From: Deltaproteobacteria bacterium
Lineage (GTDB): Bacteria; Myxococcota; JADLHZ01
Direction of reading: 5' to 3'
Assembly (NCBI GenBank): GCA_020848545.1
Contig: JADLHZ010000084.1
Span: forward strand, 62,001-126,000
Length of the DNA stretch: 64,000 bases
In this document: positions 12,506-38,806 of the stretch, in pieces
How positions within the stretch are numbered: position 1 is the stretch's first letter
Layout: every line of letters begins with the position of its first letter
Position numbers and translations under genes: made by a program
The notes under the pieces: generated by a model
What the model saw: the letters and a program-made list of their open reading frames with translations, nothing else
Databases searched by the model: none
Told to the model about the DNA's origin: nothing

Positions 12506-13336
12506 GTGAAGATCGCGCTCGCCGGCACGTCGTTTGAGCTGCGCTCGTCGTCCGAGCGCATCCTCGCCGCGGCGCGCGATCACTTCCGTGGCTTCGAGAG
12601 CGACGCGCCTGCGTCTTGGACGGTCGATCTCGACGAGCGCGGTCCGCTGACCATCGGCGGCGAAGCCGGGGTGCTCGTTGGGGCGCGTCACGACGGGCGC
12701 TGGACCTTCACGCTGAAGCACGAAATTTCGATGCGCGTCGATCCGATCACACGGACGGCGCACGCGGCGCTCGGTGCGGTGCCCGAGCTCTTTCCTCCGG
12801 GCAGCGTGCAGAACCTGCTGCGCATCCTGCTCGTGCTCGAGCTCGCGCCGAAGGGCGGGGTGCTGCTGCATGCGTCGGCGACGAGCGAAGGCGCCATCGC
12901 GTTCTTCGGTCCGAGCGGCGCCGGCAAGAGCACTTTGGCTCGCGGCTTTGCCGAAGGCACGCTGCTCTCTGACGAGATCGTGTGCGTCGACGGGGCCGGC
13001 TTGGCGCATCGCGCGCCGTTCACCGGTGAGCATCTGCCGCCGCGCGTGCCGCTCGCTGTTCCGCTACGCGCGCTCGTGGCGATCGATCACGGCGATAGCT
13101 TGCGCCTGTCGCGGCTCGCGCCGAACGATGCGCTGCGCCGCTTGCTTCCATGCGTCGTCAACGTCGCGACGGATCGCACGCTGACCGCGCAGATCTTCGA
13201 CAACGCGGCGGCGCTCGTCCGGCGCGTGCCCACGCTCCGTGCGGCGTTGCCGCGCCTGCCTGACGATCCGGGCGCGACACGGGCGCAGTTTTCCGCGCTG
13301 TTGAACCATGTCGCTCAGGCCGTTGCTCTGTGTTGA
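12506..13336 (+). CDS. HPr kinase/phosphorylase-like P-loop protein
   Basis: 276 residues beginning at GTG 12506. The P-loop GPSGAGKST (residues about 135-143) sits in the context LLHASATSEGAIAFFGPSG and is followed by LLSDEIVCVD. This is the arrangement of the HprK C-terminal fold found in HPr kinase and in related serine kinases of peptide-modification loci. The N-terminal half (residues 1-115) is not the HprK regulatory domain. Family members phosphorylate Ser on HPr or on small peptides; no HPr, lasso or PqqD-like gene lies adjacent, so the substrate is unknown. Last gene of the operon with the membrane protein and the HtrA-like protease. Confidence 0.8.
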   Translation: MKIALAGTSFELRSSSERILAAARDHFRGFESDAPASWTVDLDERGPLTIGGEAGVLVGARHDGRWTFTLKHEISMRVDPITRTAHAALGAVPELFPPGSVQNLLRILLVLELAPKGGVLLHASATSEGAIAFFGPSGAGKSTLARGFAEGTLLSDEIVCVDGAGLAHRAPFTGEHLPPRVPLAVPLRALVAIDHGDSLRLSRLAPNDALRRLLPCVVNVATDRTLTAQIFDNAAALVRRVPTLRAALPRLPDDPGATRAQFSALLNHVAQAVALC

Positions 13337-13337
13337 T

Positions 13338-13381
13338 TGGACTCTGCCACTGGATTTCATGAAATTCAGTGGTAGAGTCCA
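13338..13381. promoter_or_regulatory. 44-bp near-perfect palindrome spanning a DUF4143-ATPase start
   Basis: The two 22-nt arms (left arm begins TGGACTCTGCCACTGGATTT) match as inverted repeats at 20 of 22 positions and are centred between 13359 and 13360 on TTTCATGAAA. The palindrome begins 2 bp after the upstream kinase stop. It contains the ATG at 13359, a candidate start for the ATPase. Such length and symmetry exceed a typical operator half-site pair and would also form a stable RNA hairpin hiding the start codon. It may be an autoregulatory operator, a translational lock or a recognition site for the ATPase/nuclease-like protein; no experiment is implied. Confidence 0.85.
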
Positions 13382-14543
13382 TGTGGTGTTTAGACGGCAG
13401 CTCGACATTGCCGAGGTCGTCAACGGAAAGTCGGTCTTCCTCCTGGGGCCGAGGCAAACCGGCAAGTCCACGTTGATCCGCGGCGCCTTTCCCTCGGCCT
13501 TGGTGATCGACCTCTTGGACGCAGGAACCTTCACGACGCTGAGCCAGAACCCTGGCCACTTGGCCGAGCGCGTCGCAGCGGCTCACAGCCGCATCGTCGT
13601 CATCGACGAGATCCAGAAGCTGCCGCAGCTCTTGGATGAGGTTCACCGCCTGATGGAGCGCGACAAGCAGCTCCGCTTCGTTCTCACCGGCAGCAGCGCT
13701 CGCAAGCTCAAGCGACAAGGGACCAACCTGCTCGGTGGCCGCGCACGAACGCTCGCGCTGCATCCGATTGTCTCGGCTGAGCTCGACGGCTCGGATCTCG
13801 CTCCCGAAATCATGTGGCAGCGCGGCGCTTTGCCGTCGGTGCTGACGAGCAAGACGCCCGCGCTCGACCTGCGCGACTATGTCGGGACGTACCTCCAACA
13901 AGAGATCGCGGCCGAAGGCCTGACCCGCTCGATCGGAGCGTTCTCGCGTTTCTTGCAGACTGTCGCCGTCTGCAACGCTCAGCAGCTCGTCTACACCAGC
14001 ATCGGCAGCGATGCTGGTGTGCCTGCGCGTACAGTGAAAGACTATGTCGAGGTGTTGAAGGACACGCTGCTCGGCTTCGAGCTCGAGAGCTTCCGCCTCA
14101 CGAAGAGCCGCAAGGCTGTCGCAAGCAGCAAGCTCTACCTCTTCGACATCGGCGTCGTGCATGCCTTGCTGGAGCGAGAATCCGTCAGCACCGTGAGCAC
14201 CGACTTCGGCGCTGTGTTCGAGCACTTCATCTTCATGGAGCTGAGAGCTGCGATCGACTACTTGGATCCGCTGCAAGCGCTCACCTACTGGCGCTCGCTT
14301 TCTCAGCTCGAGGTCGACTTCATCGTGCGGCGAGGTGATCGCCTGATTGCGATCGAAGCAAAAGCGACGAAGCGCGCGAGCAAGAAAGACTTTGCCGGTT
14401 TACGCGCGTTCGCTGAGGACTTTCCCAAAGCCCGTAAGCTCTGTGTGTGCCGCGAGGATGTAGCGCGGACCACAGACGATGGTGTCGAAGTGTTGCCGTA
14501 TCGGGCGTTTCTGCAGCAGCTCTGGAGTGGTTCCTGCTTCTGA
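13359..14543 (+). CDS. AAA ATPase with C-terminal DUF4143 (PD-(D/E)XK-like), copy 1
   Basis: 394 residues from ATG 13359. Walker A is GPRQTGKST near residue 30, Walker B IVVIDEIQKLP, and sensor-like VLTGSSARKLKR follows; then comes a winged-helix region. The C-terminal DUF4143 part carries LEVDFIV (E318, D320) and IEAKA (E333, K335), a PD-(D/E)XK nuclease-like signature. Such proteins are widespread, often mobile, and of unproven function; links to toxin-antitoxin or selfish elements have been suggested. The ATG sits in the centre of a 44-bp palindrome and lacks a ribosome binding site. GTG 13383, just beyond the palindrome, is an alternative start. A GCACCG/CGGTGC hairpin lies beyond the stop. 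Confidence 0.88.
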   Translation: MKFSGRVHVVFRRQLDIAEVVNGKSVFLLGPRQTGKSTLIRGAFPSALVIDLLDAGTFTTLSQNPGHLAERVAAAHSRIVVIDEIQKLPQLLDEVHRLMERDKQLRFVLTGSSARKLKRQGTNLLGGRARTLALHPIVSAELDGSDLAPEIMWQRGALPSVLTSKTPALDLRDYVGTYLQQEIAAEGLTRSIGAFSRFLQTVAVCNAQQLVYTSIGSDAGVPARTVKDYVEVLKDTLLGFELESFRLTKSRKAVASSKLYLFDIGVVHALLERESVSTVSTDFGAVFEHFIFMELRAAIDYLDPLQALTYWRSLSQLEVDFIVRRGDRLIAIEAKATKRASKKDFAGLRAFAEDFPKARKLCVCREDVARTTDDGVEVLPYRAFLQQLWSGSCF

Positions 14544-24206: not shown

Positions 24207-25105
24207 CGCCGCGCGCGGGGAGTGCGCCAGGCAGCGCCGTCAGTGGCACGAAGCTCACACCCACTCCGCCAAAGGTCTTCTCGAAGCGCTCGGTCTCGCG
24301 CAGCGTCACGACGATGTTGTCGCCGGCGGGGTGACGGCGCCGAAACGCTTGCATCCCTGCCGGATTGAACTTGCTCGCGCTGGCCTTGCACTCGATCGCG
24401 AGCGGCTGCTTGGCGCGTCCCGCTTGCAGCACGAAGTCGACCTCGTGCTGTTGCTTGTCGCGCCAATGGTAGACGTGCGCTGCGCCGTAGCGTGCGAGCA
24501 GCTCATTGAGGACGAGGTGCTCGAGGAGCATGCCCCGATCGTCGTCGCGCAGGCGGTCGATGCCCTTGAAGTACGAGACAAAGCCGGTGTCGAAGGCATA
24601 GACCTTGGGTTGGCTGCGGATCTCCGCCGCGGCCCCGGCATGATAGGGGCGCACGACGGCGGCGACGAGCGTCGTCTCGAGGATGGAGAGGTATTGCTGG
24701 ACCGTGGGTCGAGAAATTTCGCACGGGGCCGCGAACGATTGGGCCTCGAAGAGCGAGCCGCTCTGGGCGAAGAGCAGCTCGACGAACTTGAAGAACGCCG
24801 CTTTCTTCTCGATCACAAAGAGCTCGGTGAGGTCTTTCGCCCAGAACGAGTCCATCCATTCTTCGTAGACGTAGTCATCGACGGTGTCGGCGAGGAACAT
24901 GGGGGGCAGGCCGCCATGGAGCATGCGCCGATCGAGGTTCGTGTCTCCGAGGTCTTGGAGATCGTCGAGGATCATCGGCGAGAGCCAGACCTCGCGCTTT
25001 CTGCCTGTGAGCGTGTCCTTGAACTTGTTCTTCGCCGCCAGGGTCGAAGATCCGGTAGAGAGCGCGCGCGAGCGTGGTCTTGCCGGCGCGTTTTCTTAAA
25101 GTATG
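24190..25105 (-). pseudogene. Broken AAA ATPase-DUF4143 gene, copy 4
   Basis: The intact 3' part (24190-24975, 261 residues) is a DUF4143 region with HEVDFVLQAG and AIECKAS, the PD-(D/E)XK-like signature. About 100 bp upstream, in a different frame, the sequence RKRAGKTTLARALYRIFDP is a Walker A motif of the same family. The segment in between, which should hold Walker B and the sensor region (about 80-100 residues), is missing, and a frameshift separates the parts. No start codon is evident before the Walker A. I read this as an internally deleted, decaying copy. An AT-rich inverted repeat (TTTTCTT/AAGAAAA at 25091-25117) marks its 5' end. Confidence 0.75.
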
Positions 25106-36376: not shown

Positions 36377-37546
36377 TCACACCCACGCCGAGAAAAAGCG
36401 CTCATACGACACAACCCGCACGCCGAGCCCTGGGTGCCGCCGATCGTAACCCTCGATATCCACGAGCTGAATCGCGTGCTCTGGAGCGAGCAGCGAGCGG
36501 AAGTAAAGAAGGTGCGGGCTCGGTTCGGTCTCGGTCGTCTTGCACTCGACGAGCAGCCACGGCTTGCCATTGCGGAGCACGAGGAAGTCGACCTCGCGCT
36601 TCTCCTTGTCGCGCACGTAGCGCAGTTCGGTCTCGGCGATCGCGCAGTCCGTCCAATACTGCGTCGCTTTCAACAGATGAAGCGCGGCCAGGTTCTCGAG
36701 GCGACGGCCACGTTCGTTTTCCGGCACGAGCATCTGATCGAAGAGGTAGAGCTTCGGCTCGGCCGTCAGCGCGCGTGCGATCCGTCGCGAGTACGGCCGC
36801 ACTGCAAACCACACGTAAAGCGCTTCGAGCACTTGCATCCACGCTCGCACGCTTGCGTAGCTGGCGCCCACGTCCTCACGCAGCGCATTCACGGAGAGCA
36901 GGCCAGCGGCGCGCGTTGGCAGCAGATCCATGAGCAAGCGCACGGCCTGCAAATCCATGACGGCCATGATGTCGCGAACGTCCTCTTGTACGACGCGCTC
37001 CCGCCGCAGCCGGCTCCATCGTCGCGCCTTCGCTTCGTTCGCTCCGAGCAACGGTTCCGGGAAGCCACCAAGCCGCAACAGATCGCGCCAAGGAAAGCGC
37101 GGCTTCGTCGGGGTGAAGACGGCGTCAGGAAGCGGGGGCGCAGCGCGCTCGCCACAGGTGAACGGGTGAAGTCGGTACGGAATGTAGCGCCCCTGCATGC
37201 TGTCGCCGCCGCGGCGATATAAATCGAGGCGCGCGCTTCCGGTCACCACGATCGCTTGATCGTGGCCGAGCTCGTCGTAGACGCCTTTCAGGCGGTTCTT
37301 CCACCGTCGATCCTTGTGGATTTCGTCGAGGACGATGGGCCCTTCGCGACGATTGACGAGCGCGTCCCGCGGAGACCGCGACCACTGGCGACGGAACGCT
37401 TCCGTGTCCCAGCTGTAGTAGTTCGCGGGCTCCGACAGAAACGTCTTTGCCAGAGTCGTCTTGCCGACTTGGCGAGGGCCGGAGATGAACGCCATCTTGC
37501 GTGTCGCGAGCGCGTCTTCCGCGATGGGGTTCTGAAGATAGCGCAC
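36377..37546 (-). CDS. AAA ATPase with C-terminal DUF4143, copy 2
   Basis: 389 residues from GTG 37546, where the family's conserved start (RYLQNPIAEDAL) begins; a longer TTG start at 37582 is possible. Walker A is SGPRQVGKTTL, Walker B PIVLDEIHKD and the sensor VVTGSARLDLYRRGGDS. The C-terminal part has REVDFLVLRNGK and LLVECKTTE, the nuclease-like signature. It is only distantly similar to copies 1 and 3, so they are not recent duplicates. No ribosome binding site precedes either start; an inverted repeat TTATCG/CGATAA lies at 37589-37606. It is in tandem with copy 3 (upstream). Confidence 0.85.
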   Translation of the reverse strand: MRYLQNPIAEDALATRKMAFISGPRQVGKTTLAKTFLSEPANYYSWDTEAFRRQWSRSPRDALVNRREGPIVLDEIHKDRRWKNRLKGVYDELGHDQAIVVTGSARLDLYRRGGDSMQGRYIPYRLHPFTCGERAAPPLPDAVFTPTKPRFPWRDLLRLGGFPEPLLGANEAKARRWSRLRRERVVQEDVRDIMAVMDLQAVRLLMDLLPTRAAGLLSVNALREDVGASYASVRAWMQVLEALYVWFAVRPYSRRIARALTAEPKLYLFDQMLVPENERGRRLENLAALHLLKATQYWTDCAIAETELRYVRDKEKREVDFLVLRNGKPWLLVECKTTETEPSPHLLYFRSLLAPEHAIQLVDIEGYDRRHPGLGVRVVSYERFFSAWV

Positions 37547-37636: not shown

Positions 37637-38785
37637 TCAGTCGAGCCTCAATCCGTTCGCCAACGCCGCGCAGTAGAGCCGCCAGGGCACAACCTCGACG
37701 CCGTTCGCCAACGTCCGCGGCTGCGACTCGGTACAGACCACCCAGCGTCGCTTCAACTTCACGTCCTCTGACAGCGCGATGAGCCCACGCGTATCCGACT
37801 CGTGCACGCGACCGGTCTTGAACTCTATCGCCGTGTGATCGTCGAGCACGAGGTCGACCTCGTAGCCGCTCGCCGATCGGAAGTAGCGCGCTTGCCCGAA
37901 GGTCTTGTCGTAGTGCTGCGCCGCGAGCGCTTCGAGCACGCAAAACTGCTCGAAGCTCTGACCGTACTCCGGCGTGCGATCGCTCAGGATACGCCGCAAC
38001 AACGTATTCGGCAGGCCGCAGTCGAAAAAGTAGAGCTTCGGTGTGCGAATGGCCCGGCGCTTCTTCGTCTTCACGAACGGCTCGAGCGTGTAGGCGAGCA
38101 AGGTGTCTTCGAGGATCTGAAAGTACTCTTGCACCGTCTTCGCCGAGACGCCGACGTCGCGCGCGACCGAGGCGAAGTTCAGCAGGGCGGTGTTCGACAG
38201 CGCCGCGATCTCGAGAAAGCGCGTGAAGTTGCCGACATTGCGCACGAGCCCTTCGGCGCGCACCTCCTCGCGCAGATACTCGCCGCAGTAGTCGTCGAGC
38301 GTACCCTGCTTGTCGGCGTCGCTGGCGTCGAGGACGACGGGTGGCAGCGTCCCGAACTGTAGCAGCGTCCGCAAATCGATCGTCATCCCAGCGTCGTTGA
38401 GCTCGCGCCAAGTCAGAGGGAACAGCCGCGCGGAGCGGAGCCGGCCCGCGAGATTCGTGACCCCGCCGCGTCGAAGCGTGCGCGCGCTCGATCCGGAGAC
38501 GACGACGCGCACGCGCGTATTCTCGATGAGCCAGTGGACCTCGTAAATGAGGTCAGGGATTCGCTGCACCTCGTCGATGATGAGCGTGCCTTTGAGGCTG
38601 GCGAAACGCTCGCGCAACAAGGACGGTGAACGGACGTACTCGTAGTAGGTGTCCGTCTGCAGAAGGTCGACGAAGTGCGCCGAAGGCAGCGTGGTCTTGA
38701 GCAGAGTGCTCTTACCCACCCGCCGCGGTCCGAGAAGCAGGTAGTGCTTGGCCTCCAGCAGGGCGAGCCGACGATGGATGACCAT
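37637..38785 (-). CDS. AAA ATPase with C-terminal DUF4143, copy 3
   Basis: 382 residues from ATG 38785. Walker A is LGPRRVGKSTLL (about residues 18-29), Walker B TLIIDEVQRIP and sensor VVSGSSARTLRRGG. A winged-helix part follows, and the C-terminus contains GYEVDLVLDDH and AIEFKTGRV, the PD-(D/E)XK-like motif. It resembles copy 1 more than copy 2 (shared GSSARxLxRxG and EVxAEGL-type text). There is no ribosome binding site; TTATCATGATAA, a perfect 12-bp palindrome, lies 9 bp upstream of the ATG and may double as the -10 region of a leaderless transcript. Confidence 0.87.
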   Translation of the reverse strand: MVIHRRLALLEAKHYLLLGPRRVGKSTLLKTTLPSAHFVDLLQTDTYYEYVRSPSLLRERFASLKGTLIIDEVQRIPDLIYEVHWLIENTRVRVVVSGSSARTLRRGGVTNLAGRLRSARLFPLTWRELNDAGMTIDLRTLLQFGTLPPVVLDASDADKQGTLDDYCGEYLREEVRAEGLVRNVGNFTRFLEIAALSNTALLNFASVARDVGVSAKTVQEYFQILEDTLLAYTLEPFVKTKKRRAIRTPKLYFFDCGLPNTLLRRILSDRTPEYGQSFEQFCVLEALAAQHYDKTFGQARYFRSASGYEVDLVLDDHTAIEFKTGRVHESDTRGLIALSEDVKLKRRWVVCTESQPRTLANGVEVVPWRLYCAALANGLRLD

Positions 38786-38794
38786 GACGGCACT

Positions 38795-38806
38795 TTATCA
38801 TGATAA
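38795..38806. promoter_or_regulatory. 12-bp perfect palindrome TTATCATGATAA before DUF4143 ATPase copy 3
   Basis: TTATCA at 38795-38800 and TGATAA at 38801-38806 are perfect complements, in a locally AT-rich patch. The distance of 9 bp to the ATG leaves no room for a leader, so a promoter here would yield a leaderless or nearly leaderless mRNA. The sequence is compatible with an autoregulatory operator overlapping the promoter. Confidence 0.55.

Follow-up and report, generated by a model that had tools for sequence, protein, structure and literature searches.

A gene-specific palindrome as the probable operator of a PDC-S01-family ATPase-nuclease gene

What a 44-bp, almost perfect palindrome does immediately upstream of a gene for a putative ATPase-nuclease is the question raised by this locus, which lies in a 64-kb window (the whole stretch of DNA analysed, 64,000 nucleotides) of an 8.0-Mb, 66% G+C genome whose nearest genomes in our collection share only its phylum. 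The palindrome, TGGACTCTGCCACTGGATTTCATGAAATTCAGTGGTAGAGTCCA (13338-13381), had been described from the sequence as near-perfect, and this description held: 20 of the 22 pairs match, there is no loop, the dyad falls between 13359 and 13360, and both mismatches set a G opposite a T. It begins one base after the TGA (13334-13336) that ends an upstream ORF (12506-13336), which encodes a Walker-type ATP-binding motif and gave no family match. It is the top-scoring palindrome of the whole window, with a probability of 7.8e-10 per centre, equivalent to 5e-5 expected per 64 kb and 0.006 per 8 Mb; this expectation, together with the recurrence of such sites across the gene family, already refutes a chance origin, whose probability we consider negligible. 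No second copy of the 44-mer was found in its own 8-Mb genome, the 66-bp stretch around it is single-copy in the 8.0 Mb, and its inner 26-mer occurred only once when up to 3 mismatches were allowed. A 34-base pattern of the palindrome found nothing in viral contigs, and a search of plasmid DNA with the site returned a single match, at chance level only.

The ATPase gene lies within a longer ORF (13308-14543), in which an ATG at 13359 sits at the dyad, in frame with the gene, as the sequence-only reading had pointed out. That this ATG is the start codon, as had also been proposed, is improbable. Translation more likely begins at GTG 13383 or GTG 13386, just 3' of the palindrome, because the initiation codon of many homologues (L042, L048, L049, L052, L056, L060 and others) corresponds in position to 13383; the ATG at the dyad probably reflects no more than the conserved TCATGA in the middle of the site. 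The central ATG does appear to serve as the start in one clade (L094, L102 and L106). The encoded protein scored above the cut-offs of Pfam AAA_14 and DUF4143 and was matched over its full length by the PADLOC models of PDC-S01, with E values down to 1.2e-62, while NCBIfam, searched with four proteins, yielded no match for any of them. Nine residues (G22, R24, G27, K28, D75, E76, D312, E325 and K327) are invariant in 74 sequences including that of the window, leaving the Walker A/B and PD-(D/E)XK motifs intact. An AlphaFold model built on 74 homologues (mean pLDDT 94) placed an ATPase domain at approximately residues 1-135, a winged helix at approximately 185-256 with its recognition helix at 215-227, and a PD-(D/E)XK-type domain at 257-386 (Table 1). 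The gene has a G+C content of 0.615, a little below that of the window (0.659). A second inverted repeat, ACACCAGCATCGGCAGCGATGCTGGTGT, with perfect 12-bp arms and a 4-base loop, is found at 13993-14020, within the sequence coding for the winged helix.

Table 1 Features of the palindrome and of the gene that follows it (window coordinates).
Feature	Position	Strand	Basis
44-bp palindrome, proposed operator for the protein of the next gene	13338-13381		Sequence; family-wide counterparts
Left variable hexamer V, CAGTGG reading outward from the dyad	13347-13352	-	Half-site register, covariation
Inner core GATTTCA/TGAAATT (ATTTCATGAAAT), counterpart of the family ATTATCA/TGATAAT	13353-13366		Register of cores
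Right variable hexamer V, CAGTGG, with a G at position 3 that goes with Arg216	13367-13372	+	Register, covariation
Spacer of 7 bases (GTAGAGT), then a degenerate third half-site (CCATG)	13372-13383	+	Family spacing rule; match read from sequence
AAA_14-DUF4143 protein (PDC-S01 family): ATPase / winged helix / PD-(D/E)XK, 386 aa from the likely start GTG 13383	13383-14543	+	Profiles, alignment, model
Winged helix (residues 185-256), including the turn and N-terminal half of the recognition helix (residues 209-219; 14007-14039)	13935-14150	+	Structure model, covariation
PD-(D/E)XK nuclease-fold domain, residues 257-386; invariant D312, E325, K327	14151-14540	+	Alignment, model

Homologues of the gene were collected from 80 genome contigs, 58 relatives, the phylum, seven other genomes and 241 genomes around one of those seven, and the region from -105 to +15 of each gene was scored for palindromes against a threshold. 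An upstream palindrome was present in 46% of 134 non-redundant family copies, compared to 5.6% of the remaining ORFs at these loci, and in 52% of a set of 242 copies; about half of the family copies showed no palindrome above the threshold. Palindromes downstream of the same genes stayed at the background rate (3.7%). Among distant family members (28-33% identity), inverted repeats were found upstream in 6 of 20 and inside the gene in 0 of 20, but their architectures were not that of the sites described here. Once placed in register, the sites of the family share a core reading TGATAAT outward from the dyad, most commonly as TTATCATGATAA, flanked by a variable hexamer. In most sites the hexamers of the two sides are identical or almost so, yet they differ from gene to gene: more than 20 different ones were seen, among them CGGCAA, TGACGG, CCGCAG, CAGCAA, TGGTGG, ATAAAG and CCACGA, the window having CAGTGG. 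A third half-site, arranged tail to tail, recurs at a single spacing, a gap of 7 bases being found in 57 instances against 4.0 expected from swapped flanks, and the resulting arrays of half-sites have a period of about 31 bp, that is, three helical turns. The third half-site of the window (CCATG, 13379-13383) stands at this fixed spacing and matches CACTG at 3 of 5 positions. The most array-like site that we saw in the family is a tandem array of a unit of about 31 bases upstream of the gene at locus L045.

The palindrome could also belong to some other, general regulator of the host, and the 12-bp core with its even dyad does resemble a typical regulator site. However, when the 58 genomes were scanned blindly with the bare TTATCATGATAA core, 11 of the 16 sites retrieved lay directly 5' of family genes; the core therefore marks the family and not a general regulator site. 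The other five comprised one site 68 bases from a contig end (L298), one extended palindrome lacking a neighbouring family gene (L301) and three that look incidental. The same palindrome standing at unrelated genes, which the sequence-only reading had named as the sign of a common regulator site, did not turn up in the searches of the window's own genome and of the 58 genomes. The genome of the window itself contains two TTATCATGATAA sites, both at family genes, and this, along with the uniqueness of the 44-mer and of the 26-mer and the fact that the arms follow the encoded protein rather than the host, makes a general host regulator a highly improbable owner of the site. The palindrome at L301 (G003:C69:50297-50308), TTTGCTTTTATCATGATAATCGCAAA, is of the family type and lies near a gene for a restriction-endonuclease-like protein; it may represent a remnant or a target standing alone.

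Paralogues within one genome bear different palindromes. The hexamers of same-genome paralogues showed no extra difference (0.340 against 0.332 expected), so that there is no excess supporting selection for insulation. The window holds one such paralogue at 37652-38779 on the minus strand (41% identity), with a TTATCATGATAA site of its own directly 5' (core 38795-38806), and it is followed in tandem by a more distant family member (36497-37507, minus strand). A partial, distant relative of the ATPase family, covering query residues 97-362 at 25% identity, was located at 24286-25071 on the minus strand and is possibly a decayed copy.

If the variable hexamers are read by the proteins encoded next to them, hexamer and protein should vary together. 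Pairwise similarity between hexamers was compared with pairwise similarity between protein segments, after removal of overall identity by regression. A first run without register gave only a weak signal in the winged helix, which became clear after the half-sites had been aligned in register: the hexamer covaried with residues 209-219, corresponding to the turn and the recognition helix (r = 0.177; 0 of 2000 permutations, p < 0.0005, the tree being not fully modelled). The best nine-residue stretch of the whole protein was 211-219 (r = 0.186, the 99% family-wise limit being 0.183), and no covariation signal was detected in the wing, the ATPase or the nuclease parts. The correlation between hexamer and helix persisted when only pairs below 60, 50 or 45% identity were used. 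At the level of single residues, 14 of 17 proteins with Arg216 had a G as the third hexamer base, compared to 7 of 37 lacking it (p = 1.4e-5, the top of 3268 tests on 54 representatives). Arginine-guanine is a classic pairing in DNA recognition, and the window conforms to the rule, its protein having Arg216 and its hexamer being CAGTGG. These results provide strong statistical evidence that the protein encoded by each gene would read its own palindrome.

The position of the site relative to the promoter was also informative. A -35 box started exactly 25 bases 5' of the dyad (N17 spacing) in 15% of the even-centred sites, compared to 1.2% of the background, an arrangement which places a CATGAT -10 box at the dyad. 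Of the 34 copies in which a good promoter could be scored, 18 had the palindrome overlapping the -10 box and 8 had it wholly 5' of the -35 box, where it would therefore be untranscribed. Since the position of the site relative to the promoter varies, repression by promoter occlusion is not universal. No sigma-70-like promoter was recognisable at the window's own site.

These data also bear on the possibility that the palindrome acts as RNA, as a leader hairpin that either keeps ribosomes off or stops transcripts entering from the upstream gene. The window site does have features that would suit such a function: it folds at -37.1 kcal/mol (z -7.4), both of its mismatches are G-U in the sense strand, it follows so closely on the upstream stop, and it received a weak terminator-like prediction, albeit without a real T tract. 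Across the family, however, arm mismatches are mostly unable to pair in RNA (among those of transition type, sense G-U against A-C was 32 against 18, p = 0.065), eight copies have the site 5' of the -35 box, the three-turn phasing of the extra half-sites fits DNA, and the arms covary with a DNA-binding helix. A function as RNA thus appears improbable, and the earlier suggestion of a cruciform or an mRNA hairpin burying the start is not borne out, given the lack of a significant G-U preference, the 8 of 34 sites upstream of the promoter and the covariation of the arms with the DNA-reading helix. At the window site, where the RNA could fold strongly, the palindrome may nevertheless also affect, secondarily, read-through out of the upstream gene.

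The sequence-only reading had further supposed that the palindrome might be the left boundary of an inserted module, and comparison of the relatives agreed with this, since their DNA homology begins at or just before the palindrome. For 41 cross-genome gene pairs (L130/L132 and L029/L030 are examples), homology started at a median of -74, with 33 of the 41 starting between -140 and +20, and it ended at the stop codon, within 60 bases in 34 of the 41. Among the 58 relatives, the upstream neighbour of the window gene had weak relatives only and the downstream neighbour almost none, and none were syntenic. The best reading is that operator and gene would form a mobile cassette; as the two seem to move between genomes as a unit, the palindrome would also be the left edge of this cassette.

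Such behaviour brings in another explanation, namely that the palindrome primarily serves a mobile element as its site of recognition or processing, at which the ATPase-nuclease inserts or homes, with autoregulation being secondary. Operator and gene are indeed common to genomes with unrelated flanks, the PD-(D/E)XK fold retains its invariant D, E and K, the family is often found on plasmids (169 records), the L301 palindrome stands without a family gene, and single genomes may harbour 29-33 copies. Yet the 3' end has no partner repeat (3.7%), the window palindrome occurs just once in 8 Mb, many relatives show a linkage of the site to the promoter, and the copies within a genome are divergent, each with its own palindrome, and are not recent duplicates. 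We consider this explanation unlikely on balance, but the cassette behaviour and the nuclease fold lend it some weight. The highest copy numbers were those of genomes G010 and G013, with 33 and 29 ATPase-family copies, respectively; the copies examined were mutually divergent and their palindromes different. On the conjugative plasmid pSn of Simkania negevensis, a family copy (L276, 37% identity) is flanked by two site-specific integrase genes. An insertion sequence with terminal inverted repeats was considered and rejected, with downstream palindromes at the background rate and no near-identical copies per genome. Palindromes beside a nuclease gene in a mobile unit are familiar from REP elements with their RAYT transposases and from the ends of IS200/IS605 elements. 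The palindrome described here likewise adjoins a nuclease gene in a mobile unit; it differs from them in its single copy per genome and in lacking a 3' partner and a Y1/HUH nuclease. Membership of the REP/RAYT class was rejected, the palindrome not being repeated through the genome.

Taken as a whole, the evidence favours the palindrome being a cis operator for the ATPase-nuclease encoded directly downstream, which would bind it, repress its own gene and travel with it in a shared cassette; we assign this reading a probability of roughly 0.72. Two observations typical of an operator underlie it: relatives have the site at the gene's own promoter, and its specificity tracks, statistically, the DNA-reading helix that the gene encodes. 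An autoregulatory role is the most likely one for such an operator and the most economical reading, because the site lies over or beside the promoter. According to sequence statistics, the proposed mechanism would start from family genes with a 5' palindrome whose AT core is fairly constant, whose symmetric hexamer is gene-specific and which often has additional half-sites in 31-bp phase. The hexamer would be read, as the statistical association indicates, by the turn and the N-terminal half of the recognition helix. Two subunits would then bind head to head over the core, to be joined on that face of the DNA by others in tail-to-tail arrangement, covering the promoter and repressing the gene, so that the protein level would be self-limiting and the copies in a genome would not cross-regulate. 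In the last and weakest step, occupancy might be lost by titration on incoming DNA or by an ATP-driven rearrangement, and the ATPase-nuclease would be derepressed. Cooperative binding, autorepression and the link to defence are all inferred from sequence.

The proposed operator has both parallels and differences with known systems. Autoregulated toxin-antitoxin modules and the controller (C) proteins of restriction-modification systems have gene-proximal palindromic operators that overlap the promoter, are read by a protein belonging to the same small, mobile cassette and diversify between cassettes. The palindromes of the window family are likewise gene-proximal, specific to their own cassette and diversified, whereas here the reader would be the ATPase-nuclease itself, in one polypeptide, and the operator can be extended to a 31-bp-phased array. 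Archaeal Cdc6/Orc1 proteins, in which an AAA+ ATPase is followed by a winged helix and which sit on inverted repeats at origins, were the nearest structural neighbours, the best whole-chain match being Cdc6/Orc1 on origin DNA (2qby), followed by clamp loaders, RuvB and STAND proteins. The superposition was weak (TM 0.3) and domain-wise only, a search of solved structures in the PDB with the window sequence gave no match, and here a PD-(D/E)XK domain is added and the repeats are gene-specific instead of shared.

By its profile matches the window protein belongs to PDC-S01, as defined in PADLOC (AAA_14 plus DUF4143, COG1373-type ATPases). This family, an ATPase fused to PD-(D/E)XK, has been ranked fourth in frequency among the defence candidates of prokaryotes, and most such candidates still await validation (PMC12988326); an antiviral role is accordingly a candidate one. 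Our literature search for PDC-S01 and DUF4143 found no description of the palindrome, of a winged helix reading one or of self-recognition, and the palindrome and its probable winged-helix reader set the present case apart from the published descriptions found. A more speculative idea, which we think rather unlikely, is that every cassette has its own identity tag in the DNA: the ATPase-nuclease would assemble on its palindrome as a phased oligomer and use the site as a self-marker or sensor, and foreign DNA or that of a rival cassette would displace or titrate it, releasing active nuclease. If this were true, competition between cassettes would drive the joint diversification of arms and recognition helix, much as with restriction specificities.

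For the probable operator, the consequence is that sequences alone would predict the DNA target of each PDC-S01 member, the residues that read it and the spacing of its subunits. No mechanism for PDC-S01 was found in the literature searched, and a family known by association would thereby gain a testable molecular behaviour, while offering a natural catalogue of matched winged-helix/operator pairs.
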